A stretch of 60,501 nucleotides of DNA from Candidatus Obscuribacterales bacterium. GTDB taxonomy: Bacteria > Cyanobacteriota > Vampirovibrionia > Obscuribacterales > Obscuribacteraceae. Positions 4,339 to 20,356 of this stretch are shown in pieces. The stretch spans positions 1 to 60,501 of the forward strand of contig JAGVKB010000099.1 of the NCBI GenBank assembly GCA_020050835.1. The letters are read 5' to 3'. The position numbers and the translations under genes were made by a program. The notes below the pieces were generated by a model that was given only the letters and a program-made list of their open reading frames with translations, had not been told where the DNA came from and did no database searches. Each line of letters begins with the position of its first letter. Within the stretch, counting starts at the first letter, position 1.

Positions 4339-5637
4339 ATGAAAGGCAAAATCACCAAGAGATTCGTCGACGGGCTCGACAAGCCAGGAAAATGGAAGTG
4401 CACGGAGGTGCGTGGCTTTGGGGTCAAGGTGACGCCTGCCGGCAAGAAGATATATATCGTAGAGAACAACGTGCGCGGTGGCTCTGCAAAAATCACCGTA
4501 ACTATCGGACAGCACGGAGTTTGGTTGACGGACCCGGCGCGTGATGAGGCAAAGCGCATCCTGGCGTTGATGGCGCAGGGTATCAATCCCAATGAATTGA
4601 AGGCGAAGGACAGAGCGGAGCAGGAACGGCAGAAGGAGATCGAGCAGGCAAAAAGTAGAGATCTTGAGATTACGCTGGAACGTGTGCTGAACGACTATAT
4701 GCGATCGCGCGGTGACTCACTCAAGGAGAGCACCAGGTACATCTACAACTGTGTGATTTCGAGTAGTCTGTCAGAGTGGATGGCACTGCCCATCAAAGAA
4801 ATCACTCGCGAAATGGTTGAAGCTCGACACAGGGAAATGACTGACTCTGGGAAAAAGGGCGCTGCCAACCATGTGATGCGAGTTCTTCGAGCTTTATTCA
4901 CATACGCGATGACGACGTACAAAAGCTTTGATGGTGCGCGACTTCTCACTGAAAATCCTGTGCGTAGATTGTCGGAAGTGAAGGCCTGGAACAAACTGGA
5001 GCGCAGGCAAGGCGTGATCAAGACGCATGAAATGCACGCCTGGTATCAAGCGGTGAAGAAACTTCAGTATCAGTCATCCAAAGACTTGCTTGTTTTCTTG
5101 CTTTTCACTGGGCTTCGTCGCAATGAAGCAGCGAATCTGAAGTGGGCAGATGTCGATTACGATGGGAAGACCATCTTTGTAAAAGATACAAAAAACAGAG
5201 TGCCGCATATGCTGCCAATGACCTCGCAGTTGCGTGCTCTCTTGAAGAGCCGCCCGCAGGGAGCAAGCGATGATTTGATATTTCCATCCAAGAGAACAGG
5301 GCAAGCTATTCGAGATGTTCGTGCTGACCTAGATAAAATCAAAGAAGTGAGCGGCATCGAATTTGTTCTTCACGATCTTCGTCGGACTTTCATAACGATC
5401 GCCGAAAGCCTTGATATTCCCTATTACGCGATTAAGCGCCTGGCAAATCACAAAGACAGCACCGATGTTACGGTCGGCTATATAGTCGCAAATGTAGAGC
5501 GGCTGCGAGAGCCAATGGCGAAGATCTCAAATTTCATTGATGAGAAGATTCAGTTTACCGAGGAAACTGATGATGCCAAAAAAGGCAAGCCAAAGAAGGT
5601 AGTGGCATTCCGCAAAAAAGCTGGTACCGAGCGGTAA
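4339..5637 (+). CDS. int: Tyrosine recombinase / integrase
   Basis: This 432-residue protein is a phage/island-type integrase. The N-terminal 90 residues resemble the DUF4102 arm-binding domain (KxYxVENNVRGG..ITVTIGQHG). A SAM-like core-binding domain follows at about 110-215, then the catalytic domain. Catalytic residues are visible: R260 in TGLRRNE, H345 and R348 in HDLRR, H371 in LANHK, and Y381 in GYIV. It would cut and join within the tRNA-Leu att core to integrate and excise the element. It is the first gene inside attL and reads inward, as in most tRNA-borne islands. The 50-residue charged tail after the Tyr is longer than usual. Confidence 0.95.
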   Translation: MKGKITKRFVDGLDKPGKWKCTEVRGFGVKVTPAGKKIYIVENNVRGGSAKITVTIGQHGVWLTDPARDEAKRILALMAQGINPNELKAKDRAEQERQKEIEQAKSRDLEITLERVLNDYMRSRGDSLKESTRYIYNCVISSSLSEWMALPIKEITREMVEARHREMTDSGKKGAANHVMRVLRALFTYAMTTYKSFDGARLLTENPVRRLSEVKAWNKLERRQGVIKTHEMHAWYQAVKKLQYQSSKDLLVFLLFTGLRRNEAANLKWADVDYDGKTIFVKDTKNRVPHMLPMTSQLRALLKSRPQGASDDLIFPSKRTGQAIRDVRADLDKIKEVSGIEFVLHDLRRTFITIAESLDIPYYAIKRLANHKDSTDVTVGYIVANVERLREPMAKISNFIDEKIQFTEETDDAKKGKPKKVVAFRKKAGTER

Positions 5638-6534: not shown

Positions 6535-6981
6535 ATGAAGGATTTTGAACGAGCCGAAAAGATTCTGATGGACTCCGGGTACTTCGCAGGAGATCCCGGC
6601 AGCCCGGGAGGTTTGTGTCCCGTTCAACATACTGCGCTGTTGAAGGATGGACGAACCTATTACTTCCGCTCGCGCGGAAGCGTTGCGTCCATAGAAATCT
6701 ATCCAGAGTGGGCGGAATGGAAGGAGGAAGGTGGACTCCCTGATGAGCAACCGGAGGGTGAGTATGAAACGTCCTATCGCTGGCCGGACGCCGGATATAT
6801 TTCGCCAGTCAAAGCGGCCCGGCTGATCGTCAAATGGCTAAGCTTTTTCTACAGCGATCCATTTCGTCGATACGACCAGAGATTGAGAGCTATGCGGCTC
6901 AAGGAGAATCAAGACAAAAATGCACAACGGAGCGATTCGAAGATAGCTGGTTGTGATTTGAGTTCGAAGGAGGAGCAATGA
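6535..6981 (+). CDS. Hypothetical soluble protein
   Basis: About 148 residues from ATG 6535, chosen because AAGGAAAG lies about 8 nt upstream. The centre (KDGRTYYFRSRGSVASIEIYP) is beta-rich and the C-terminal third is helical and strongly charged. The last codons overlap the next gene (ATGA at 6978-6981), so it is translationally coupled to the phosphoesterase. I do not recognise the family. No catalytic motif, signal peptide or membrane helix is seen. Confidence 0.6.
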   Translation: MKDFERAEKILMDSGYFAGDPGSPGGLCPVQHTALLKDGRTYYFRSRGSVASIEIYPEWAEWKEEGGLPDEQPEGEYETSYRWPDAGYISPVKAARLIVKWLSFFYSDPFRRYDQRLRAMRLKENQDKNAQRSDSKIAGCDLSSKEEQ

Positions 6982-7571
6982 CAATCTGGTTCACATCCGA
7001 CCACCATTTTGGACATGCAAACATCATCAAATACTGTGAAAGACCATTCAATTCGGTAGCACACATGAACGCCTCTATGGTGGGAGCTTGGAACGGGGTG
7101 GTTGCTCCGGGTGATACTGTGTATTACTTGGGCGATTTTGCCATGCAACCACATTTGGTGGCAGAGATGTTGCCCCAACTTAATGGCACGAAAATACTCA
7201 TTGCTGGAAATCATGACCGCTGCCATCCGAAAATCGGCAGTCCATACAAGTGGCTTCAAGCCTATGTTGAGGCTGGTTTCATTTCCGTGCACACCGAGAT
7301 GGACATGGAGATCGGCGACCAGAACGTTCTCTTACATCATTTCCCATACAGGATTGAGACAGAACCGAAGCAGAAGTATTATGGGCAACGCCCTGTCGAC
7401 AATGGCGGTTGGTTGATTCACGGACACGTGCACAACCGTTGGAAGTTGTCTGGACGGCAGATCAATGTGAGCGTCGAGAACTGGAATTTTGAGCCCGTGA
7501 GCCTGGAGACTATTGCCGCGGTCATCGAAGAAGGTCCGCAGCCGAGCGCCGTGTCTCGATCTTATGACTGA
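6978..7571 (+). CDS. Calcineurin-like metallophosphoesterase
   Basis: A 197-residue single-domain enzyme with the full set of metal-binding motifs: D-x-H in SDHHFGH near residue 8, GD in YYLGDFA near 51, GNHD near 76, a His in LLHHFPY near 117, and the closing GHVH near 149. Relatives hydrolyse phosphodiester or phosphomonoester bonds using two metal ions. The compact form with FTSDHHFGH is common in phage and plasmid phosphoesterases. The substrate is unknown. It overlaps the preceding gene by 4 nt. There is no export signal, so it acts in the cytoplasm. Confidence 0.9.
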   Translation: MTIWFTSDHHFGHANIIKYCERPFNSVAHMNASMVGAWNGVVAPGDTVYYLGDFAMQPHLVAEMLPQLNGTKILIAGNHDRCHPKIGSPYKWLQAYVEAGFISVHTEMDMEIGDQNVLLHHFPYRIETEPKQKYYGQRPVDNGGWLIHGHVHNRWKLSGRQINVSVENWNFEPVSLETIAAVIEEGPQPSAVSRSYD

Positions 7572-8081: not shown

Positions 8082-9914
8082 CTACACGTCGACGTCGACC
8101 TGTAGACTTCTCGGATTGTATGAACGTTCGGCATCTTTCGTGAACATCTCGTAGACTTGCTCGCGTACGGGATGCGTTGAGTAGATCTTATCGATTTGAC
8201 CATCTGAAGCGCTCTGAGCTTGGTATGTTTTGCCGTCAATCATTACTTGCAGCTCAGCTGGAGGCAGTTCGGTCGTGAAGCGGACCACGACCTTGCTTAG
8301 CTGCCTATCGGCATTGGGAATCAAGAATCTTCGGCATCTGATTTGGTCGAATGTGCCAAACCAATCGTGGGCTTGATAGGTATTAAGCCACTCTTCCAGG
8401 TGCACGAAGTATGCAATCGAGACATCATCATTGAAGTAGACCGGAGACTCAAGGTAGTGGAAGCCATTGCCGCGAACGAAGGATTTATATTCGCGTATTT
8501 GATTTTCAAGAACGGTAGTGAGGTTCATCTGTACGTTTGCCAAATTTGATTTGTCTGTAATTGAAATCGGAGCAGGTCCAACTCTGTGATAGGGATACTT
8601 GATTATTTCGTGTCCAGTGTTCAGCAAGGTTCTACATGAAGACAAGGCCAGCGCAACAGAGGTGCTACCAAGGATGGCCTGCTGCAACCTCAGATTAATC
8701 TCCGTTGGTTCGAGTTTAACCGTCGGATTGAAACTTGCTCTGGCTGCCATACGCACACACTCTTTGAGCATGGTATCGTCAATGGTGACAATACCAGTTG
8801 TGTGGAACTTCAGAATTACTGCGGTTAACCATTGTGGCAGTGCGCTTTCGAGCCGGGTTAAAAGTTCTGACAAGTTTAATTCATCGGACGGACTGAGTCC
8901 CAGTGCTGGATAGAAAGTGTCCACGAATTCGAAGAGCTGTTCTCGGCATAGTAAGTCTCCATAGAGAGGTAAAGCCCCAGCTTTAGCCACTTCCTGAAGA
9001 CCGTCATAGAGGAATTGCCGCCCGCGCCGTTCGGGCTGGTCTAGAAAATTTGAGTCATGCACATCCACCAGAGCGCTGGCCTTAAACAACCTGCTGTATA
9101 TCCCCAAGGGCGCTCGTTTAGCTTCCTTGACGCTCTCAAACCAATCGTCGATGTTTTTTTTCTCAGCTCTAATTAGGAGGAGTCCATTCCGCCCTTTTGG
9201 GATTCGATACAGTCGATGCGAGCTATTAATCCCATTTGTCTCGTAAACGCAAATCCCGAACTTCCAGACCCATGGATGCAATATGCGTTTGACCGGGTAG
9301 AATTCGCCATCAAGCCCATTGTTAACGGTGTCTATGAAGCGTTGATATCCCTCGACGTTTTCTGGAGTAAGACTAGACAATGAAATGTCTTTGGATAATC
9401 GCTCCCATAACCCCGGCCACTCTCTCGTGGCTTCAAGGTGATTATCAACCAGCTGCTGCCATCTTTCAAAGTACGGAAATCCGTCGCCGATTCCATCCAG
9501 CGTGGTATCAAAGTTCACGGTGACGCTTTGTTGGGTGTCGTTCGCATTTGCGAACAGCCCTTCATCGATTTGTTTCCAATATGCCAGTTTCTTATCTCGG
9601 TCGTAACAGATTAGAATGAATGGTAAACCTGCAGCTTTACTGTGGCCGACTAATGACGCATCAAGTTGGTAGCACGGTTTGGTTTTGCGCTGGCTATCGA
9701 TCGGTTTTACCTGTACTTCCAGTTTGCCTATAAATCGATTGTCTTCACGCAATTCCACAAAGCCGTCACGATCTTGGGTTTTGTCATTTCCTCCCAGCCT
9801 AAGTTTTATCTTCGAGTTCGAACTAGTGAGATTTCTGAGGATCAAGTTCCCCTCGTCCTCCTGATCGTCGGACTCGGAATATTGTTTTGGTTTGAACCTT
9901 TCATCTGATGCCAT
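8082..9914 (-). CDS. DUF4365-type predicted nuclease
   Basis: This 610-residue protein begins with a DUF4365-like domain. DRDGFVEL near residue 50 and KLEVQVKPI near residue 65 give the Asp / Glu-x-x-x-Lys pattern of restriction-like (PD-(D/E)XK) nucleases. It is followed by LPFILICYDRDKKLAYW, a typical continuation of that domain. Residues beyond about 150 are helical and unrecognised. The gene is last in a minus-strand set after XRE-ImmA and PIN, 40 bp behind PIN. A DNA-cleaving effector role is inferred from the domain and the defence-like neighbours. The start ATG at 9914 has only a weak ribosome-binding site. Confidence 0.7.
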   Translation of the reverse strand: MASDERFKPKQYSESDDQEDEGNLILRNLTSSNSKIKLRLGGNDKTQDRDGFVELREDNRFIGKLEVQVKPIDSQRKTKPCYQLDASLVGHSKAAGLPFILICYDRDKKLAYWKQIDEGLFANANDTQQSVTVNFDTTLDGIGDGFPYFERWQQLVDNHLEATREWPGLWERLSKDISLSSLTPENVEGYQRFIDTVNNGLDGEFYPVKRILHPWVWKFGICVYETNGINSSHRLYRIPKGRNGLLLIRAEKKNIDDWFESVKEAKRAPLGIYSRLFKASALVDVHDSNFLDQPERRGRQFLYDGLQEVAKAGALPLYGDLLCREQLFEFVDTFYPALGLSPSDELNLSELLTRLESALPQWLTAVILKFHTTGIVTIDDTMLKECVRMAARASFNPTVKLEPTEINLRLQQAILGSTSVALALSSCRTLLNTGHEIIKYPYHRVGPAPISITDKSNLANVQMNLTTVLENQIREYKSFVRGNGFHYLESPVYFNDDVSIAYFVHLEEWLNTYQAHDWFGTFDQIRCRRFLIPNADRQLSKVVVRFTTELPPAELQVMIDGKTYQAQSASDGQIDKIYSTHPVREQVYEMFTKDAERSYNPRSLQVDVDV

Positions 9915-9954: not shown

Positions 9955-10443
9955 CTATGGACAATTGAGTGTCTCCTTCAAGATCGCGATCTCTTGCATA
10001 GGCAACCGCCGATCAAGATCGGACAAGATGTCCAACCATTCGCAAAGACTCTCCGCAGGGCAAATCTGCCGAGCGTGCACTTCGGCTATGACCCACAAAG
10101 TTCCATGGACTCCAACACCTTGTGCCTGGCAAGTCAGCCGAAGTTGACGTTCATTTGTTAGAAGTGTGCGAGAAAAGGTTTGCGCATAATAGAAGTTGAG
10201 GCGATCTTGCAAACTAAGTCGTCGACTAATATCGGGGGCGATCGAGCTGAGCCAAGATAGTTGGGACTTTATCTCCTTAACACCTGCGGCCCTGATTTCC
10301 TCGACCAACCCTGGTTGGGAATGGTGATGGCATTCAGTTAAAACGACATCCAGAACCTCGACAGCCGTTAGCTGCGTAAGCGCACTCAAGCCGCGCACAT
10401 GTCCGAGATCCATAAGCACGTTCGCATCAGACAGCAAGATCAT
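9955..10443 (-). CDS. PIN-domain protein (toxin-like RNase candidate)
   Basis: About 162 residues from ATG 10443. A longer open frame reaches 10548 but lies wholly inside the upstream gene. LLSDANVLMDL at the start supplies the first PIN acidic residue. LLTNERQLRL and VHGTLWVI match the third and fourth conserved blocks of PIN proteins; the third block has Asn-Glu where Asp is usual. PIN domains are metal-dependent RNases, often toxins. The start overlaps the XRE-ImmA gene by 17 bp, so the two are translationally coupled. XRE-ImmA proteins paired with PIN-like proteins are known as toxin-antitoxin candidates. Confidence 0.75.
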   Translation of the reverse strand: MILLSDANVLMDLGHVRGLSALTQLTAVEVLDVVLTECHHHSQPGLVEEIRAAGVKEIKSQLSWLSSIAPDISRRLSLQDRLNFYYAQTFSRTLLTNERQLRLTCQAQGVGVHGTLWVIAEVHARQICPAESLCEWLDILSDLDRRLPMQEIAILKETLNCP

Positions 10444-11524
10444 TCTGAGGTGACTCCCGGTCCATCCAATTGCGCAGTTCGTCCCGCACTTCGGCGAGAG
10501 GAATTCCAAGAATTTCCGCTGCCCGAGAGGTGGTGATTTCTTCATCAATCAAGGCGCGATACGTGAGCCGCTCTAAGCGTCCTAGCCGCTTGGGAGCTGG
10601 AGGAAGCTTTCCAGGTTCCTCTGTCGGATACTTCTTTTTCAACGCACCAAACTGTATGCCCGCTTGCTTTTCCGTTAGGATGCCAGCCTGCCCCGCTCTT
10701 AGAAGAATCATTTGCATGCTGACCCAGTACCGTTGTTTTATGTCGAGAAGTAATGGTTCAGGAATCCAGCGATCCTTATATGGATGAAGCTCCGCTCGGA
10801 CAACCGCGTCAGGTAGCATCACTGCGCCAGCCAATCGATTAGCAGCCATCTCGCGAGGATCGCCTCGCTTTGCCTTGACGGCCTGAGCGTTAGCGTATTC
10901 GCGGCGGTGGAAAATTAGGTGACCCAACTCATGAACTGCCGTCAAATACTGCCTTTCGGTGGGATGAGTGGCGTTGATGACAATGATGCCACCTGACTCC
11001 TCGGTGTAACCAGAGAATCCGGATAGCTCAGTCGGCAATTCATGCAAGATGATCTTCAGTCCACGGTTTTCGAGGAGTGTGAAGAGATCACGCAACGGGG
11101 ATGCATTGCCCATTCCAAGCCAATCCCTGACTGTAACCGCCGTATCGTAAACAGTATAGTCATCATAAGCATCTAGTGGACGGGACTCAGGCAGGCCAGG
11201 CGCTTCGCCCAGCAGATGTTCGAGGGAAGAATAATCGGCGGCTTTTTGAGATAGCAATGCCCGAACAGCTGAGGTCAAGGTAGTCGGGTCGTCGGCGCGA
11301 AACAGAAGTCCGGCAGGAGCCTGGTCATACTGGTCTTCTCCGAGCAGTACTGACACAGGTACCTGCAGAGAAACAGCAACGTTCAGCAGCTGGGAGAGGT
11401 CCGGCATTGTGTCGCCGTTCTCCCAGGAGGCAATGGTCTGCCGTGTCACTCCCACGCGAATCCCCAGCTGTTCCTGGGACAGCCCTCGGTGATCTCGGTA
11501 TTGCTTGATCTTGACATTTTTCAT
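10427..11524 (-). CDS. XRE-family regulator fused to an ImmA/IrrE metallopeptidase
   Basis: Residues 5-62 form an XRE helix-turn-helix (GLSQEQLGIRVGVTRQTIASWENG). Residues about 150-260 form an ImmA/IrrE (COG2856) domain with the zinc motif HELGH at 198-202 preceded by TAV. In relatives the peptidase cleaves a repressor, or the same chain, in response to stress. The frame begins at 11536, but the likely -10 box overlaps that ATG. I therefore favour ATG 11524, which would give a nearly leaderless mRNA. The 3' end overlaps the PIN gene. It is divergent from the DUF2188 gene with a very short shared intergenic region, so it may control both directions. Confidence 0.9.
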   Translation of the reverse strand: MKNVKIKQYRDHRGLSQEQLGIRVGVTRQTIASWENGDTMPDLSQLLNVAVSLQVPVSVLLGEDQYDQAPAGLLFRADDPTTLTSAVRALLSQKAADYSSLEHLLGEAPGLPESRPLDAYDDYTVYDTAVTVRDWLGMGNASPLRDLFTLLENRGLKIILHELPTELSGFSGYTEESGGIIVINATHPTERQYLTAVHELGHLIFHRREYANAQAVKAKRGDPREMAANRLAGAVMLPDAVVRAELHPYKDRWIPEPLLLDIKQRYWVSMQMILLRAGQAGILTEKQAGIQFGALKKKYPTEEPGKLPPAPKRLGRLERLTYRALIDEEITTSRAAEILGIPLAEVRDELRNWMDRESPQNDLAV

Positions 11525-11571
11525 GGTACAATCCATTATATCAGTTGTCGAGTGTTAAGCCAACCTAACAG
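11511..11571. promoter_or_regulatory. Overlapping divergent promoters and possible operator
   Basis: For the minus strand, a perfect TATAAT covers 11535-11540 with TTGGCT 17 bp upstream. For the plus strand, TTGACA at 11511-11516 stands 17 bp before CATTAT at 11534-11539. The two -10 elements occupy the same bases, so the promoters should compete. TGTTA and TAACA at 11554-11571 form an inverted repeat (8-bp spacer) next to the DUF2188 ribosome-binding site AGGAG and could be a repressor operator. This is based on inspection only. Confidence 0.5.
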
Positions 11572-11580
11572 GAGCATTAT

Positions 11581-11817
11581 ATGTCAAAGTCGCGAAATCA
11601 ACACGTAGTTAGGCATAATGACAGCTGGGCTGTTCGTGCCGAGGGTTCCCAAAAGGTCTCCAAGGAGTTCGATATTAAAGCCGATGCTGTTAACTGGGGG
11701 CGCAAAGTGGCTCAGAATCAGCAATCTGAGCTGTTCATTCATGGCAAGAATGGACAAATTCAGGACAGAGATAGCTACGGCAACGATCCTTGTCCGCCCA
11801 AAGATAAGAAACACTAG
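11581..11817 (+). CDS. DUF2188 small protein
   Basis: This 78-residue protein matches DUF2188: an N-terminal HVVRHNDSWAVRAEGS strand pair, then a KADAVNWGRKVAQNQ helix, and the characteristic RDSYGNDPCPPKD ending. The family is widespread and its function is unknown to me. AGGAG six nt before the ATG is a good ribosome-binding site. It is the first gene of the plus-strand operon leading to the MBL, E2-E1-JAB and patatin genes. It ends in His, with no C-terminal Gly, so it does not look like a processed ubiquitin-like modifier. Confidence 0.85.
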   Translation: MSKSRNQHVVRHNDSWAVRAEGSQKVSKEFDIKADAVNWGRKVAQNQQSELFIHGKNGQIQDRDSYGNDPCPPKDKKH

Positions 11818-11837
11818 ATTAGATGGAGTATAGAAGG

Positions 11838-12989
11838 ATGTCTTTCGAATTACCTGCCCAAGGCTTTGTATTCTGGAATGTCGGAACCGGCGATAGCACA
11901 ACGATCGCTATTACTGAGGGCGTCGTTATGCAGGTCGACCTGCACCACCTTTGTGCCGCTGATGACGAGGACGATCCCCGATGCGCGGTGGTGGATCGCC
12001 TTGAAGAGTGCCTTCCTTCGAAAGACGGAAACCCCTACCTATCGGTGTTCGCTCTGACACATCCCGACCTCGATCACTGTCAGGGATTCAAGGATCTTCT
12101 GGGCCGCGTAACCATCGGCGAGCTGTGGTTTACACCCAGGGTTTTTCGCGAGTATCACAAGGATCTCTGTGAAGATGCGCAGGCATTTAGACGGGAAGCG
12201 CATCGAAGGTTGAAGAAGGTTATTGAAAACAAGGGAAGCGTAGCAGCAGGTGATCGAATCCGAGTCATCGGTTATGACGAGCTGCTTGAGGAAGATAACT
12301 ACAGAGAACTGCCTCGGTCCTGTTTTTCTGTGCCTGGGCACGAGGTCACAACCATTGATGGGGTGGATCGGTCCGACGTATTTCGTGCTTTCATTCACGC
12401 GCCATTCAAGGACAATGCGGAAGGCGAGAGAAATGATACCAGTCTCGCCATGCAAGTTACGCTCAGGAACGGCGATGCGACTGGGAAGGTAATGCTTCTG
12501 GGAGACCAATGTTACCCCACAGTCAAGCGGATTTTTGATCTGAGCGATCGCGAAGATACTCAATGGAATGTTTTTCTGGCACCGCATCACTGCTCTAAGT
12601 CGGTAATGTACTGGAGAGATGCTGGCGAAGAGGAAGCATCGCGGAAGCAGGACATATTGGATGAGATCGAGGCATCGAGCGAGCTTACTGGTTACATTGT
12701 CTCTAGCTCAGCTCCAGTCCCCGCGTCTAATGGACCTGGTGACAATCCGCCTCATGCTTTAGCGAAGGAACGGTACGAGGAGATCGCTCCCAGCGGGTTT
12801 CTGTGCACGCAAGAGCATCCGAACGAAGAGTCGCCTGAGCCAATCGTATTCGCCGTTGACGAGGAAGGCTTTAAGTATGTTGAGCCGTCCACAGAATCAG
12901 CCGGTGAGAAGGCGAGATCACTTCACATAGCAGTGGGAGCTGCGCGCGGAAGCAACGATGCGCCCGCGCATCGCGTGGGACACGGTTAA
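11838..12989 (+). CDS. Metallo-beta-lactamase-fold hydrolase (ComEC-like MBL domain) of the ubiquitin-like/patatin operon
   Basis: About 383 residues from ATG 11838, chosen because GGAG lies 9 nt upstream; the frame is open to an ATG at 11823 without one. FWNVGTGDSTTI opens the domain. THPDLDHCQGF (residues 74-84) is the metal motif, followed by LLGDQ and APHHCSKS, as in MBL hydrolases related to the ComEC C-terminal domain. The last 40 residues are low-complexity, apparently disordered and end His-Gly. The stop is 2 nt before the next gene. MBL genes next to E2/E1/JAB genes have been reported in bacterial ubiquitin-like operons. Substrate is unknown; nucleic acid, nucleotide or a conjugate are possibilities. 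Confidence 0.85.
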   Translation: MSFELPAQGFVFWNVGTGDSTTIAITEGVVMQVDLHHLCAADDEDDPRCAVVDRLEECLPSKDGNPYLSVFALTHPDLDHCQGFKDLLGRVTIGELWFTPRVFREYHKDLCEDAQAFRREAHRRLKKVIENKGSVAAGDRIRVIGYDELLEEDNYRELPRSCFSVPGHEVTTIDGVDRSDVFRAFIHAPFKDNAEGERNDTSLAMQVTLRNGDATGKVMLLGDQCYPTVKRIFDLSDREDTQWNVFLAPHHCSKSVMYWRDAGEEEASRKQDILDEIEASSELTGYIVSSSAPVPASNGPGDNPPHALAKERYEEIAPSGFLCTQEHPNEESPEPIVFAVDEEGFKYVEPSTESAGEKARSLHIAVGAARGSNDAPAHRVGHG

Positions 12990-12991
12990 CC

Positions 12992-15271
12992 ATGAGCGAC
13001 CAGGGTCTTTCGTGGGCCTTAGAACAACTGGAGTCTGTCGAGCGAGCTTCCGACGGATTGTTGAAGATTGTCAGGGTGCACAGGAAGCCGTTCGACGCCT
13101 ATCCGCTCGCCGTCGAGATTTCATTGAGCACAAAACATTTACGTTATGACGAGGCCGGAGTCAGGCTTCGAGATCGGGAACGGCTACTTCTGCTGGTACC
13201 AGATGACTTTCCGTTTCAGCTGCCGGCGGTAGGCGTACCCCATGTTCGATTCGCCGGACTTCCGCACGTTCAGTGGGGCAGCCACATCTGCCTGTATCTG
13301 TCGCCATCAACGGAATGGAACCCAGCAGACGGTCTCTTCGGCTTTCTGGAACGGATCGAAGATTGGCTGTCAGGGGCTGCGTCCGGGACGTTGGTCGATG
13401 TTGTCGGTCCGATACACCCACCAGTTGCTTACACATCCCCAAGACTCGGTGCGAGGGCAGTAGTCATTTGTTCGAACACGCCAGACCCGGGTTCGAACGC
13501 ATGGTTTGGAATCGCTCGACTCAAAGAACGGCACGATCAGCGAGTCGACGTTTGTGGATTCATGCCGACAAGCAACATATCTCTGGCGGATGATGAGATT
13601 GCTGGTGCGGCTATTCTGTTGTCCGCTGCTTTGCCATTTGAGTATCCATCCACGTTTCAAGATCTTGTGGTGTGCTTAAAGCCTGGCGGCGTCACCACGA
13701 AGGATTTGCTGAAGGTGCTGGCGCACGCTGCTAAGTTGAACAATCCAATCTATCCACTGTATGTTCTTATCGGGGCGCCTATGCGCCGTATGCCAGGCTC
13801 CGACAGAAAGTACCAACATCTCGCGGTATGGTACCTAAATCAGGGCACTGTCAGTGCAATCAGGCGCATCTCCGAATTGCTGGATGCAGGTGAGGAGAGA
13901 AATGTAGATGACTACATCAGAACACTAGAGGCTGCTCCAAAGGCACCAATAGAGTGGTGCAAGATGATGGAAGCGAGGCCAGAAGTGACCATTCGACGAG
14001 ACGACCAAACTCCCATGAATTGGTTCAAGGACAAGTGCGTTGCCGTACTTGGAGCCGGGGCGCTTGGAGCGACGGTTTGCGAATTTTTAGTGCGCGCGGG
14101 TGTGAAGAAGCTGAGCATATACGATCGAGGGATTATATCGCCAGGAATTCTGGTTCGGCAGCCGTTTACAAACGGAGATATCGGTAAGCTCAAGGTCGAA
14201 GCGTTAAAAACCCGACTGAAGCAAATTCGGCGGGATCTCGAAATTGATGTGTACGATGCTGATGTCTTAAAGCGTCCATTGGGCTTGGATGACTGGACCG
14301 AGGGGGCCGATGTGTTGATCGATGCCACAGCGAACACGTCTGTTTTGGCGAAGCTTGAATCAGTCCGACAGCAGCACCAGACAAGGCGAATTCCTACGGT
14401 ATCGATGGTCGTCGGACCGAAAGCTGAGCGAGGAGTTGTCCTTTTATCTGGACATGAATATAGTGGCGGCTTGCTGGACGTCAGTCGAAAGGCGAAGCTC
14501 GCTGCGTGCAGCACTAATGGGATGTCTGAATATCTGACAAACTTTTGGAGTGGCAATAATCCTGCTCAGCCATTCCAGCCAGAGCCCGGTTGTTCGGAAA
14601 GCACCTTTGTGGGTTCTGCAGCAGACGTTGTTACGCTCGCTGGAATGATGATCAACTGCGCTGCAAGAGATTTAGCCTCCATTGCGCCATCGCAGGCGAG
14701 CGCCTTTTTCGTTACGCAGCCATGGCTCGGTACGGCGGCGAACAGTGCGGCACATTTAACTTGGGAAAGGGATGTAGTGCTATCAGCCGACGCAAGCGGT
14801 TATGAAATCCGCATGGAACATAGTGCCGCCGAGGATTTACACAAATGGATAGACCAAGGCGGCCGCACCGCATCTAGTACTGATGAGACTGGGGGTGTGC
14901 TATTTGGAGAAATAAATGACGCATGTCAAATTGCATGGATTACCGAAGTTACCGGACCTCCTCCTGACAGCTCGGCTTCGCCTGTCGAATTTACCTGCGG
15001 CACTGTCGGGGTGCAGGAATCCAACGAAATGAAACGTGCGCAAAGCAAGAATTCAGTCCATTTTCTGGGGTTGTGGCATACGCATCCAGATTCCGTTGCT
15101 CTGCCAAGTACCATTGATCTCAATAGTGCTCTCGAACTGCTTTACGAAAAGAATAGCGGACTCTCCAAAGTGTTGATGCTAATCTCCGCAGGTAAGAATG
15201 GAAAAGGGCAGCTAGGCTGCGGCGTATTCAGAAGGAACATTGGGACAACACAATGGTTGATGCAGAACTAG
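12992..15271 (+). CDS. E2-E1-JAB triple fusion (ubiquitin-like conjugation and deconjugation enzyme)
   Basis: A 759-residue chain with three enzyme modules. Residues 1-150 are E2-like, with SHICLYL giving a candidate catalytic C100 followed by STEWNPADG. Residues 345-590 are an E1/ThiF-like adenylation domain with GAGALGATV (354-362), VLIDATAN (441-448) and a candidate catalytic C534 in PGCSESTF. Residues 630-750 are a JAB/JAMM protease with E640, WHTHPD (H696, H698) and STID (D709). CBASS splits these activities between Cap2 (E1+E2) and Cap3 (JAB); here all are in one chain. One protein could thus attach a protein C-terminus to a target and also remove it. It overlaps patatin by 19 nt. Confidence 0.9.
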   Translation: MSDQGLSWALEQLESVERASDGLLKIVRVHRKPFDAYPLAVEISLSTKHLRYDEAGVRLRDRERLLLLVPDDFPFQLPAVGVPHVRFAGLPHVQWGSHICLYLSPSTEWNPADGLFGFLERIEDWLSGAASGTLVDVVGPIHPPVAYTSPRLGARAVVICSNTPDPGSNAWFGIARLKERHDQRVDVCGFMPTSNISLADDEIAGAAILLSAALPFEYPSTFQDLVVCLKPGGVTTKDLLKVLAHAAKLNNPIYPLYVLIGAPMRRMPGSDRKYQHLAVWYLNQGTVSAIRRISELLDAGEERNVDDYIRTLEAAPKAPIEWCKMMEARPEVTIRRDDQTPMNWFKDKCVAVLGAGALGATVCEFLVRAGVKKLSIYDRGIISPGILVRQPFTNGDIGKLKVEALKTRLKQIRRDLEIDVYDADVLKRPLGLDDWTEGADVLIDATANTSVLAKLESVRQQHQTRRIPTVSMVVGPKAERGVVLLSGHEYSGGLLDVSRKAKLAACSTNGMSEYLTNFWSGNNPAQPFQPEPGCSESTFVGSAADVVTLAGMMINCAARDLASIAPSQASAFFVTQPWLGTAANSAAHLTWERDVVLSADASGYEIRMEHSAAEDLHKWIDQGGRTASSTDETGGVLFGEINDACQIAWITEVTGPPPDSSASPVEFTCGTVGVQESNEMKRAQSKNSVHFLGLWHTHPDSVALPSTIDLNSALELLYEKNSGLSKVLMLISAGKNGKGQLGCGVFRRNIGTTQWLMQN

Positions 15272-16497
15272 CAAATGGTTTTTCAGAGCGGGATCCGCAC
15301 TCATGCGAGATTGGCTTGGCGCTTTCCGGAGGGGGATCGCGAGCTATTGCATTTCACCTTGGTTGCTTGCGAGCCCTAGACGCAGCCGGAGTCCTGCAAA
15401 GAGTGAGCGTCATTTCGGCAGTATCCGGTGGATCTGTCGTAGCGGCAATGTACGCCTACAGCAACGACTCCTTCAGTGAATTCGATGATCGGGTGTGTTC
15501 ACTTCTTCGCAAGGGTATCCAGTGGAATATAGCGAGTCGCTTTCTTCGTCTTGATTTCCTGTTGGGCAGTTTGATTACAACGGGAATTGCTGGAACTTCT
15601 GCTGTTGCGGCAGATCTTGCACGGGACACGCTGACTGGAATCTGGAGGCACTTCGCCAACAGCCGTGGGCAAACGCCAGCATGGATAGCGCGCATGCATG
15701 CGCCATTCCCCAGGTGGATTAGCAGGACAAATGCTTTTGAACAAATCCTGCATGACAAGGTATTCCGGGATTTGCGGATGACTTCATCCCGCAGACACGA
15801 TCTCAACATTGTGATCAATGCTTGCGAGTTGCGGACGGGAACGGCGTTCAGATTCGGCAGCAGGGAAAGCGCCTCATGGAGATTTGGCAAGGTTGACGGA
15901 AATGCAGTCAACGTTTCGAAGGCGGTCGCAGCATCAGCTGCATATCCGTTCTTGCTTCCAGCACTCGACACAGAATTTACATTTCAAGATCGCTCCGGGG
16001 AGAAAGAGACTAAGAGGGTGATTCTTACAGATGGGGGGATTTATGACAACCTTGGAACGTCCTGTCTTGAGCCGCATCGGTCAGCGGATTTCAGCTATAA
16101 CATCTTTCATCCACGGCATATTGTTTGCTGTTATGCAGGACATGGACAACTTGATGATTCGACTCATCCCTATTGGTGGTCATCACGCATGACTCGTGCG
16201 TTCGGCGTGACGTTCAAAAGGGCCCAGGAGGCATCTCTAACTCGCCTGCACGATTATGTGCACCATGGTGAGATCGAAAGCTTCATCCTTGCATACCTCG
16301 GACAGCAAGATTCGAAGTTATTGGATGTGCCCAGCGACTTGGTCCGGAGAGAACAAGTGGCAAGTTATCCAACTGATTTTGCTCCGATGACAAACAAAGA
16401 CATTGAGTTGCTTGCCCTTCGTGGTGAGCAACTTACAAGCCTGCATCTCAAGCGTTACGGCGAGAAGTTGCTTAGGGCTGAAGTTCAACCTGGATAG
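15253..16497 (+). CDS. Patatin-like phospholipase (probable membrane-damaging effector)
   Basis: A 414-residue patatin-fold protein. The oxyanion loop SGGGSRAIAFH is at 25-35, the nucleophile S58 lies in AVSGG, and the catalytic D260 is in LTDGGIYDNLG. A hydrophobic stretch near 100-125 may help membrane contact. Patatins hydrolyse membrane phospholipids and are a known CBASS effector class (CapV), normally activated by a cyclic nucleotide. No cyclase gene is present in the operon, so activation here must differ. The start overlaps the E2-E1-JAB gene by 19 nt. The chain ends Gln-Pro-Gly, a C-terminal glycine that could be a substrate for the fused E1-E2. The gene overlaps the convergent 16485-17072 gene by 13 nt. 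Confidence 0.9.
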   Translation: MVDAELANGFSERDPHSCEIGLALSGGGSRAIAFHLGCLRALDAAGVLQRVSVISAVSGGSVVAAMYAYSNDSFSEFDDRVCSLLRKGIQWNIASRFLRLDFLLGSLITTGIAGTSAVAADLARDTLTGIWRHFANSRGQTPAWIARMHAPFPRWISRTNAFEQILHDKVFRDLRMTSSRRHDLNIVINACELRTGTAFRFGSRESASWRFGKVDGNAVNVSKAVAASAAYPFLLPALDTEFTFQDRSGEKETKRVILTDGGIYDNLGTSCLEPHRSADFSYNIFHPRHIVCCYAGHGQLDDSTHPYWWSSRMTRAFGVTFKRAQEASLTRLHDYVHHGEIESFILAYLGQQDSKLLDVPSDLVRREQVASYPTDFAPMTNKDIELLALRGEQLTSLHLKRYGEKLLRAEVQPG

Positions 16498-17072
16498 TTC
16501 TGTTCACAGACGACAGGCGTTCCCTTGCCCAGTGCTGCATCGATGCTACTTGAGACTGTCGACACGATAGAGTCGCAGGCGGCATAATTTACACCTTCGA
16601 CTTTAGGTGAGAAATCGAGCTGAATGACCGTAGTGCCGCGTTCGGTGCTGCGTACCTGAACGTCTAGCGCGAGGAACCGGTGCACACGCTCTTTGCGGGT
16701 GTGGATGTTGCCGCGGGCGTCGCCTTCGATGCGGGTGAATTCATCCATGAACCGCAGGTTTGCTGTGATCCGGCCGGACTGTGTATCGGCGGTGACGACG
16801 TGCCACTTGTCGCCGTAGTTGTAGGATACTTCCGCGAGGTAGTCGCGAATCTTTGCAAAGGCCAGTTTGGCAGGGACGTTGTACTCGCGTGGTGCCGGGT
16901 GCAGGAAGTTTGATCGTTCTTGAGCGGCGAGCTTGAAGAGTGGAGCGGCTGCCAGGAAGCCGAGAACTAGTCCTGGCAAAACGCCTGCTCCTGGATCGTG
17001 AGTGAGTTCGTTGGTTAGTGCTCCGGTGATAAGGAACACAAAGATTCCGGCTGCTATTGCTAGGATGGCCAT
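16485..17072 (-). CDS. Membrane protein coupled to the coupling-protein gene
   Basis: A 195-residue protein with two hydrophobic segments near the N-terminus (about residues 2-20 and 32-50), then a soluble beta-rich domain of about 140 residues. Its start overlaps the end of the VirD4-like gene by 13 nt, so it is the last gene of the mobilization operon. The coupling protein upstream lacks the usual N-terminal membrane helices. This product may provide its membrane anchor; that is inference from context. No family is recognised. Confidence 0.7.
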   Translation of the reverse strand: MAILAIAAGIFVFLITGALTNELTHDPGAGVLPGLVLGFLAAAPLFKLAAQERSNFLHPAPREYNVPAKLAFAKIRDYLAEVSYNYGDKWHVVTADTQSGRITANLRFMDEFTRIEGDARGNIHTRKERVHRFLALDVQVRSTERGTTVIQLDFSPKVEGVNYAACDSIVSTVSSSIDAALGKGTPVVCEQNYPG

Positions 17073-19063
17073 ACGTCATCTACCTCCGGTGAGTTGTCTT
17101 CTGGCTGTGAATATGTGGAGTGATCAGCGTGCGGGCGTTCTTGCTGGGTTGCACGCGAGTTTGAATTGCGCTGTCGATTGTCGCGGTTTCTGTCGTCGCG
17201 CCCTTTGTTATTGCGGTCTTTATTTCTGCGGTTTCTGCTGGTTCCGCCAGATTGATTTTCGGCGGCGCTGTTTGGCGATTGTTGTTGGTCCTTTTGCTCG
17301 TTTGTTCTGCCGCGTCTGCGGACGTGCTCAGTGATTTCGTGAGCCGGACGCTCCGGCGCGGGATATGCCATTGCATGTTCATAGGCATAAGGTGTGGTGA
17401 GTGGAAGCTTGAGCGGCCAGGTGTCGTTCGTGAATGCAATTACTTCGCCGCTGAGATTTATCAGTTCGTCTGGTGTGGCGAGCGCCCGTCCCTGAATGAA
17501 CTCGTGCACTCTGCCGGTATCATTTACGGTGACTTCTTCGATTGTGGTTCTGCCGAGCGCTTCGCTTAATGCGCGGGCTTCGCGGAAGTTCTTCTGTCTG
17601 AAGTAGATCTGCGTTGCCGGCTGGTCGAAGATTATCTGCGCCTCCTTTTGTGAGTAGATTCGTTCGAGCTGGAAGTAATTCTGGAATCCGAGCACGAGAC
17701 TTATCTTGGCTTTTCTGACGATTGATAGGACATTGGCGATGTTGGCGATCTTTCCGAAGTTTGTGAATTCATCGAGGAACATCGCTGTCGGATACTTCAT
17801 CGTCGCTTTGGTGTCGAGCAAGTAGTCGAGGAGGAAGTTCACCAGAAGGGAGCCAATTAGTTTGCTGTCTCGCGACCGGCTTGGCACCGCTATGTAGAAG
17901 GTGAACAGCTGATTCCTTAGTTCTTCGAAGTCGATGTCTGTCTTCTCCGTTAGCGCTACGAGCTGGTCGGTTATCCATGGATTAAGCTTTGTCATCAGTC
18001 CCGACAACACTCCGAATCTGAAGTTCTCGGAAGTCGAGCCGAGCCATCCCTCGAATTCCATTTGCGCGAGGTCTGATTTGCTCTTTGCCATCGTCTCCCG
18101 GACTCGGTTGATTCCAGAGAGAAGAAGCCATCTTATGGCCCCGATGTGACCCATCTCTGGTTCGGTTGCTGCGGCGTGAAGTATCAGTGATACCAGGAGC
18201 TGCTTTTCTGATCGGTCCCATGTCGGGTCGACTCTCGTTTCCTCGCCGCTGCCATTCATGATGATCAAGTCGGCGAGTTTCTCGGCTTCTCTGGCTTTCT
18301 CAAGTTGCGGTGCCATTCTTACTCGGTCAACGGGGTTGATTCGAGTTGATGACATGTCGGCTGGATTGAATGAGTAGATTCTGTGACCTGCCTGTTTCCG
18401 CCAGCCTGAAGTGAGCGTATACAATTCGCCTGGTTCGTATCCGGGTGTTGCCTCGGTGACGAGCATGTTGGTTCCGAGACGCTCCATCAGGTTCGGGATG
18501 AAGAAACCTCTGGACTTGCCTACGCCGGTTCGGCCGCATACTATCGCGTGCGCGTTTGTCACTAGCTCTGGCACCGAGATGTACTCGTTTTTCTGGGTCT
18601 TGCCGATGATTAATCGAGTTGCTTCGGGCTTGTTCGTGATGTATCCAGCTTTGTGTAGTTCGTTTTCATCTCCCCATGTTGCGCCACCATGGATGGTGGA
18701 TTTCGCTTTTGTTGCGGAGACTCGCTTTGCTCGACTTGCGTCTTCTTGAAGCTTGACGATTACCTGTTCGCATCGGCGCCGGCAATCTTCCTGAGTACCA
18801 CCTCCTTTCTTCTCTGAGATCTCAACGTCGACTAGCGAGCCGCCGGTTGATGTTTCAGACCATCGGAGAACGACTCTGTATTCGTGCCTCCACCAGTCTC
18901 TTCCAACTTGCTCGTCCAGTCTCTCTACGGCGAGTATTTGATCGAGTTGTTTACTCGCTCTGGAAACCTGGTATCCAAGTCTGTCCAGGACATTTACTGC
19001 GAGTACCGGTAATTCTTTGGGCGTCGTGTCCACGATGCCCATGTCGTGTGCTGTTGTTTGCAT
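17060..19063 (-). CDS. VirD4/TraG-like type IV coupling protein without membrane segment
   Basis: This 667-residue ATPase contains Walker A CGRTGVGKSRG near residue 178 and Walker B TAMFLDEFTNFG near 440, with GFQNYFQLE (sensor-like) after it, as in TraG/VirD4/TraD proteins. These hexameric motors bring the relaxase-DNA complex to the secretion channel. The usual two N-terminal transmembrane helices are absent; the first 150 residues are soluble. The last 110 residues are a disordered tail rich in Arg, Asn and Asp. It lies 6 nt behind the relaxase gene. Confidence 0.9.
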   Translation of the reverse strand: MQTTAHDMGIVDTTPKELPVLAVNVLDRLGYQVSRASKQLDQILAVERLDEQVGRDWWRHEYRVVLRWSETSTGGSLVDVEISEKKGGGTQEDCRRRCEQVIVKLQEDASRAKRVSATKAKSTIHGGATWGDENELHKAGYITNKPEATRLIIGKTQKNEYISVPELVTNAHAIVCGRTGVGKSRGFFIPNLMERLGTNMLVTEATPGYEPGELYTLTSGWRKQAGHRIYSFNPADMSSTRINPVDRVRMAPQLEKAREAEKLADLIIMNGSGEETRVDPTWDRSEKQLLVSLILHAAATEPEMGHIGAIRWLLLSGINRVRETMAKSKSDLAQMEFEGWLGSTSENFRFGVLSGLMTKLNPWITDQLVALTEKTDIDFEELRNQLFTFYIAVPSRSRDSKLIGSLLVNFLLDYLLDTKATMKYPTAMFLDEFTNFGKIANIANVLSIVRKAKISLVLGFQNYFQLERIYSQKEAQIIFDQPATQIYFRQKNFREARALSEALGRTTIEEVTVNDTGRVHEFIQGRALATPDELINLSGEVIAFTNDTWPLKLPLTTPYAYEHAMAYPAPERPAHEITEHVRRRGRTNEQKDQQQSPNSAAENQSGGTSRNRRNKDRNNKGRDDRNRDNRQRNSNSRATQQERPHADHSTYSQPEDNSPEVDDVWPS

Positions 19064-19069
19064 ATGTGT

Positions 19070-20356
19070 TTACTCCATAAAGTCAAGATCGCGATCGCGT
19101 TTTCTCTCTCCGATTTCTCGCTCTTTTCGCGCATCTTTGCGTGTGTTCTTGTTGTCTTCGATTGCATCATCAATCTTCTCGATGATTTCTTCGTCGGCTG
19201 CCTTGTGATCTGGATTGCCGCGAGTCCGCTGCTTTGCTTCAACGTCTCGCTTCGCATCTTCGAGATCGTCTCGGTTCTCTTTGAGGCGGTCTCGCTGATC
19301 GGTAAGCGGGATCATTCTCACTATCTCGGCGGCAATTGCCGCCTCGGTCAGGAAGAGTCCCATGATTGGATTCCGCATCATCTCCTGCTGTAGCGGCGAT
19401 ACATACCGATTTGCCGCCGGCGAATTGCGCGCTTCGTCTCTTGCTGTTTGAGATGCCTTAGCGCTTGTTAGTTGGCGATCGATTTCGCCGGAGAATCTGG
19501 CACGGTCTTTTTGTTCAATCCAATTCGCCAGGCGTTTGTAATCCTCCTTTGGTAGCCTGAGCGATTTGTCAGTGTTCTCATGCAGATGACGCCGGAGACC
19601 TGCCAGCCGTTCGTAGCCGTCGTCTTTTGAATAGCGTTCTCCCAGATACTCGAATGAGTCCTTCGGATCTCGTGGCTCATCCTTGTTCCATTGCTGATAT
19701 GGCTCAAGTTGTTCGCGGACGATTTTCTTGTGCAGCCATGGAAGCTCTTCTCCGTTCCTTATTCGTTCTTGTCTCTCCTTTTCGAACTGTTGCTGACGTT
19801 CCTTGTTGCGCTCCCGCTGTTTCTCCTGGCGTGCGAGTTCCGCGATGCGACAGTCCGAGTATTGGGTGCGTTCCAGGTAACGATCGCCGAATTCCTTGAT
19901 GAGGTCATAGTCTCGTTTGTCGAACTTGACTAATCGACCGTTCTTGTCCTTTGAGAGAACAACCACATGCATATGGCGATGCTCCGTGTTGTCGTGAGTT
20001 ACCGCCCAATACTGAAGATCGAGTGCCTTCTCTGAGCCGAGCTGGTGCATCACCTCCCTTGTAAATTCCTTCGGATCATTGGGGCTTACCTCCGGGGAGA
20101 GCGTCAGCTTGTGGATGACGACTCCCCGTCCTTCGTATTCGCGGACTATGTCCCGCAGCTCTTTTGCATCTACCGAATCCTCCGTATCGGTGAAGACATC
20201 TCGACCACCTTGTTCCAGATCTTTGCCGGGTCGGTGCTGGATGTATTTCACGTGTCCCAGCGCTGTACCGATCGCTAATCCTCTTGCGGCCTTCAAACTG
20301 ACTCCACCTCGCTGCTTCGCCTTGACGGAGATGTAGCTGTGGCGAACGATCATCAT
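19070..20356 (-). CDS. MobA/VirD2-type relaxase
   Basis: A 428-residue relaxase. The N-terminal third has the candidate nicking tyrosine in HVKYIQHRPG near residue 38, HKLTLSPE near 82, and the three-histidine metal motif HDNTEHRHMHVVVLS near 120-134, as in MOB-P/VirD2-type enzymes. It would nick oriT and stay bound to the 5' end. The C-terminal half is highly charged and helical, with a short hydrophobic stretch near 335-355. It overlaps the MobC-like gene by 4 nt and precedes the coupling-protein gene by 6 nt. A second Met follows the first, so the start may be one codon later. Confidence 0.9.
   Translation of the reverse strand: MMIVRHSYISVKAKQRGGVSLKAARGLAIGTALGHVKYIQHRPGKDLEQGGRDVFTDTEDSVDAKELRDIVREYEGRGVVIHKLTLSPEVSPNDPKEFTREVMHQLGSEKALDLQYWAVTHDNTEHRHMHVVVLSKDKNGRLVKFDKRDYDLIKEFGDRYLERTQYSDCRIAELARQEKQRERNKERQQQFEKERQERIRNGEELPWLHKKIVREQLEPYQQWNKDEPRDPKDSFEYLGERYSKDDGYERLAGLRRHLHENTDKSLRLPKEDYKRLANWIEQKDRARFSGEIDRQLTSAKASQTARDEARNSPAANRYVSPLQQEMMRNPIMGLFLTEAAIAAEIVRMIPLTDQRDRLKENRDDLEDAKRDVEAKQRTRGNPDHKAADEEIIEKIDDAIEDNKNTRKDARKEREIGERKRDRDLDFME

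Follow-up and report, generated by a model that had tools for sequence, protein, structure and literature searches.

A conserved C-terminal glycine on the MBL-fold protein of a 6A-MBL operon as the candidate residue activated by its E2-E1-JAB partner

The operon and its surroundings

The window, which is the whole stretch of 60,501 nucleotides that was analysed, carries a four-gene operon on the forward strand at positions 11581-16497. Its products, in gene order, are a DUF2188 protein of 78 aa, an MBL-fold protein of 388 aa, an E2-E1-JAB fusion of 759 aa and a patatin of 414 aa. The features of the operon and of its divergent regulator are as follows.

10427-11536, reverse strand: divergent regulator with HTH and ImmA/IrrE peptidase domains (HTH_3 and Peptidase_M78)
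11581-11817, forward strand: DUF2188 protein (PF09954, 6.6e-22)
11823-12989, forward strand: MBL-fold protein, 388 aa, '6A-MBL enzyme', the proposed conjugated protein (NF058524, 304.6 bits, cut-off 220)
12888-12986, forward strand: flexible C-terminal tail of the MBL protein, residues 356-388 (pLDDT about 59-67; length and sequence vary among homologues)
12984-12986, forward strand: GGT codon of Gly388, the conserved C-terminal glycine of the MBL protein (46/46 and 92/92 homologues)
12992-15271, forward strand: E2-E1-JAB fusion, 759 aa, Cap2- and Cap3-like (NF058523, 360 bits, cut-off 320; Prok-E2_A, ThiF, Prok-JAB)
13289-13291, forward strand: E2 catalytic cysteine C100 (invariant, n = 41 sequences)
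14591-14593, forward strand: C534, the catalytic cysteine of E1, within a mobile loop (invariant, n = 41 sequences; loop 532-535 with pLDDT < 50)
14885-15118, forward strand: JAMM metalloprotease motif E632, H696, H698, S706 and D709 (invariant, n = 41 sequences)
15253-16497, forward strand: patatin-like phospholipase, probable effector (PF01734, 9e-19; GGGSR, SAVSGGS and TDGGIYDN motifs)

The MBL protein and the fusion both exceed the curated NCBIfam cut-offs for '6A-MBL enzyme' and '6A-MBL cap2_3', which are both labelled as anti-phage system. The two-gene core, an MBL gene beside a single E2-E1-JAB polypeptide, is that of operon row 6a of Iyer, Burroughs & Aravind (2006; PMC1779556), and the window operon additionally has the DUF2188 and patatin genes. 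On sequence grounds, the window operon is therefore of the known 6a or '6A-MBL' anti-phage type, and the finding made here concerns the substrate of the E1. The description in the accessible part of PMC1779556 contains neither a C-terminal glycine nor the MBL protein as a substrate. No papers under the name '6A-MBL' were found, nor was the source of the NCBIfam name.

The fusion places E2, E1 and JAB on one polypeptide in this order (Prok-E2_A 12-151, ThiF 347-467 and Prok-JAB 627-733 in Pfam). Its closest solved protein by sequence is Cap2 (3e-29), and its best structural matches are Cap2-CdnD02 complexes with Z scores of about 23.5, some of which have the C-terminus of the cyclase bound at the E1 site. 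Besides the catalytic cysteines and the JAMM motif, the ATP-site residues G354, G356, D378, R389 and K401 are also invariant in the 41 E2-E1-JAB proteins compared.

Of 92 loci, 29 have the patatin joined to the C-terminus of E2-E1-JAB, 36 have it as a separate protein, and in 27 none was found. The fused polypeptides measure about 1130-1215 aa (L043, L045, L046, L048 and others). In the patatin-free operons L037, L040, L130, L131, L136 and L137, the third gene often codes for a small protein predicted to have 2-4 membrane segments, which is likely an alternative effector. Since some loci without a patatin have such a small gene in its place, the third gene seems to be an effector that can be exchanged. 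DUF2188 relatives are present in L057, L065 and L138, and in L138 the gene occupies the same operon position as in the window.

Divergent regulators of the HTH/ImmA-IrrE or WYL type precede many such operons (L037, L038, L039, L130, L131, L138 and L139), as they do in CBASS; in L037 and L138, the HTH and ImmA/IrrE parts are separate genes. The window operon is flanked by a phage-type integrase on one side and by a coupling protein and a MobA/VirD2-like relaxase on the other (4339-5637, 17060-19063 and 19070-20356), and is probably carried by an integrative mobilisable element. Upstream of the operon lie a DUF4365-containing protein with a weak PADLOC REase-PNTD match and a calcineurin-like phosphoesterase (8082-9914 and 6978-7571).

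The MBL protein, its tail and the conserved glycine

The start of the MBL protein is probably the second ATG at 11838 (MSFELPAQG), which fits the homologue alignment better than the one at 11823. The predicted structure has a pLDDT of 89 and a pTM of 0.87, and the core is well folded up to about residue 355. The closest fold is the ComEC MBL domain (PDB 9ic4), with a Z score of 24.0 and an r.m.s.d. of 2.9 Å over 252 residues. The metal-binding residues H80, D82, D84, H85, D228 and H255 are of the same HxDxDH type as in ComEC and are invariant in 55 sequences. Judged by its fold, the core is probably a ComEC-like metal hydrolase, acting as a nuclease or phosphodiesterase. Unlike ComEC, the window MBL protein stands alone, lacks the membrane channel domain and carries a tail with a conserved C-terminal glycine. 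Its fold differs from the β-grasp in structure comparison. The protein had no match in the Pfam scan or in PHROGs, and none of the INPHARED phage records matched.

The final segment of the gene (12900-12989) encodes residues 360-388, ...AGEKARSLHIAVGAARGSNDAPAHRVGHG, followed by the TAA stop codon. The C-terminus reads ...ARGSNDAPAHRVGHG, with RVGHG as its last residues. In residues 356-388, the predicted model has a weak helix (358-374) followed by coil. The sequence-only reading had described a disordered tail ending in glycine; the low confidence of this region bears that out, although the tail has about 33 residues in the model rather than the roughly 40 that were claimed. It had also read the patatin end as Gln-Pro-Gly and the DUF2188 end as His, and the translations agree (...RAEVQPG and ...DKKH). 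DUF2188 was rejected as an E1 substrate on account of this end.

Relatives of the MBL protein were gathered by whole-protein similarity, not by tail similarity, from 80 genome loci, 7 viral-contig loci and additional plasmid loci; L092 and L120 were excluded as their MBL genes are frameshifted. Removal of redundancy left 92 proteins below 90% identity and 46 below 60% identity, from operons of many phyla. Every MBL locus examined has an E2-E1-JAB partner. A glycine followed by 0-6 residues is present in 92/92 and 46/46 of these proteins, respectively. The number of residues after it is 0 in 13 proteins, 1 in 16, 2 in 35, 3 in 11, 4 in 15 and 6 in two. The 92 ends fall into a GFG group (60), a TYG/GYG-like group (13), HG (9), PRAG (8) and two others, and the HG end in the window belongs with the GFG group as a variant, with VGHG in place of VGFG. 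When the tails are aligned on this glycine, the entropy is 0 at the glycine and about 2.8-3.7 bits at 19-29 residues upstream; therefore, the linker is free and the end is fixed. Thus, the glycine is kept while the tail is not, which is the pattern that the sequence-only reading had proposed looking for, and its loss among homologues, named there as grounds for abandoning the idea, was not observed for the MBL protein.

A glycine-rich tail could produce such a residue by chance. This explanation was rejected using 2000 shuffles of the last 40 residues, in which any glycine in the last seven was counted: the shuffled tails gave 28.5 ± 3.2 of 46, and none of the 2000 reached the observed 46/46. 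This count is independent of the preceding residue, whereas the pattern '[FYHAQ]G' is post hoc, having been picked after the tails were viewed. The other C-termini of the same operons behave as expected by chance, with a glycine in the last seven residues in 9/28 patatins (8.6 expected) and 15/34 unfused E2-E1-JAB proteins (15.7 expected). The same count gives 0/5 for MBL homologues without an E1 neighbour, which are distant relatives, every close one having an E1, and 4/28 for ComEC-like proteins, also distant relatives of the MBL protein.

Comparison with type II CBASS, Bil and Bub

The nearest comparison is type II CBASS, which likewise has a Cap2-like E2-E1, a Cap3-like JAB and a partner encoded in the operon whose low-complexity tail finishes in a small, conserved residue; patatin effectors are found there as well. 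The partner differs, being a CD-NTase cyclase in CBASS and an MBL hydrolase in the window system. Pfam, PADLOC and NCBIfam scans of the operon proteins and their neighbours gave no CD-NTase. The Cap2- and Cap3-like active sites are intact in the window but lie in one fused protein, so that the JAB is joined to E2-E1, and in the 29 fused loci the patatin is too, whereas these are separate in type II CBASS. The conserved C-terminal glycine is carried by the MBL protein instead of a cyclase.

Type II CBASS cyclases are conjugated via a C-terminal Gly or Ala (PMC10097602), and they keep this residue only in systems that have Cap2 and Cap3 (Jenson et al., PMC10097602). The B. cereus cyclase ends in KPGGFA (PMC11153139), which is close to the MBL consensus VGFG. 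We also examined five type II CBASS cyclases, taken from plasmid operons, as a search in the phylum of the window yielded E1-JAB pairs in which no cyclase end could be read. Four of the five end directly in Gly or Ala, and the tails are similar (for example, ...APVVGRSTSG). Type II CBASS accepts Gly or Ala, whereas only Gly is seen in the MBL system, where 1-6 residues usually follow it. The sequence-only reading regarded a link between the conjugating enzyme and its own operon partner as a new variation; in itself this is not new, since type II CBASS makes such a link with its cyclase (PMC10097602, PMC11153139).

In Bil and Bub, E1, E2 and JAB-type enzymes likewise act via the C-terminus of a protein encoded in the operon. 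The modifiers in these systems are β-grasp proteins, whereas the candidate in the window has an MBL fold. Pfam identified no β-grasp modifier in the window operon, where DUF2188 has no C-terminal Gly.

Proposed role of the glycine and competing explanations

We propose that the MBL protein, very probably, rather than the patatin, is the one activated by way of the glycine at its C-terminus, because the glycine is kept throughout the MBL proteins, the patatin and E-protein ends are at chance, the catalytic residues are invariant and the fusion matches Cap2-cyclase complexes in structure. The sequence-only reading had allowed either C-terminus to be adenylated; the MBL half of this proposal stands and the patatin half does not. 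In the proposed reaction, the E1 domain would adenylate the MBL protein at its terminal glycine; the protein would then pass from the E1 cysteine to the E2 cysteine and be joined via the glycine to a target, probably at a lysine. Most MBL proteins have 1-6 residues after the glycine and so are not activatable as made; a trimming step must be assumed, and the fused JAB domain probably removes these residues first. The window MBL protein ends exactly at the glycine, so trimming is not needed there. Later, the JAB would release the MBL protein from its targets. The MBL core would be a metal hydrolase on a flexible tail, with conjugation placing its activity or switching it on, and the patatin, once activated, may be the membrane-damaging effector where the operon has one. 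We give a probability of about 0.85 to this explanation as a whole, that is, a 6A-MBL operon whose E1 and E2 conjugate the MBL protein through its glycine, with the JAB trimming and deconjugating.

The strongest competitor, though an improbable one, is that the motif around the glycine serves E2-E1-JAB or another partner for non-covalent docking or recognition and is not a conjugation site. Weak upstream conservation (RG..PP..VGF) in one large group would suit such a motif. However, the glycine alone is common to the GFG, TYG, HG and PRAG groups, it always has just 0-6 residues behind it, a near-terminal position that E1 chemistry requires, and the conjugation and isopeptidase residues are all intact. 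It is less probable still that E2-E1-JAB uses a separate β-grasp ubiquitin-like protein encoded elsewhere, with the MBL protein only a co-factor. Bil-type systems do employ a β-grasp protein, but no operon protein matched a ubiquitin-like family in Pfam, and a separate modifier leaves the invariant MBL glycine unexplained. Operons with only the MBL and E2-E1-JAB genes also occur (L039, and row 6a of PMC1779556), which argues against this explanation as well.

Two further explanations are very improbable. Activation of the patatin at its QPG end fits the window, where this protein does end in Gly, but not the other operons, where the patatin ends vary (PEL, LSD and AHR among them) and carry glycine only at the chance level, and where the patatin itself is fused to the E protein in 29/92 and not found in 27/92. 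The MBL glycine could also be a by-product of translation signals, if the ribosome-binding site of E2-E1-JAB forced GG-rich codons into the end of the MBL gene; the two genes do overlap by 4 bases in 38/80 operons, but the codons at the glycine (GGC 19, GGT 12, GGG 8, GGA 7) are like other Gly codons in the gene, the distance from the glycine to the E start ranges from -2 to 44 bases, and an SD-like string covers the glycine codon in only 6/39.

According to a 2025 review (PMC12355090), Cap2 with its cyclase substrates is the one ubiquitin-like transfer system known to act on a non-β-grasp protein, and the review expects more. Under the conjugation reading, the element that would be new is an MBL enzyme as the conjugated partner, made with a short post-glycine extension in most homologues. 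MBL conjugation is not mentioned in the searchable papers but may have been reported elsewhere, so priority is uncertain. The wider picture, to which we give even odds, is that an MBL-fold enzyme is a second, independent non-β-grasp protein used like ubiquitin, that most homologues make it as a precursor whose 1-6 residue extension is cut by the JAB, that conjugating, trimming and, in some operons, killing by the patatin are combined on one polypeptide, and that a ComEC-like nuclease is covalently placed without a diffusible messenger. The conserved MBL glycine offers a specific second candidate substrate, present in many phyla, and singles out the residue on which mutation should bear. If the proposal is true, an operon that was described in 2006 with no substrate assigned becomes a testable pathway, and E2-E1 fusions would appear retargetable to unrelated enzymes by a change of tail.

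Relatives of the MBL protein at about 31% identity are common on plasmids of Enterobacteria, with 124 Klebsiella and 25 Escherichia records (for example, L039, L133 and L140). The enterobacterial plasmid loci examined are of the two-gene form, and PRAGVSNQ is one example of how their MBL proteins end. In Streptomyces scabiei (NC_013929.1; L102 and L104), a copy of the operon lies near each end of the linear chromosome.
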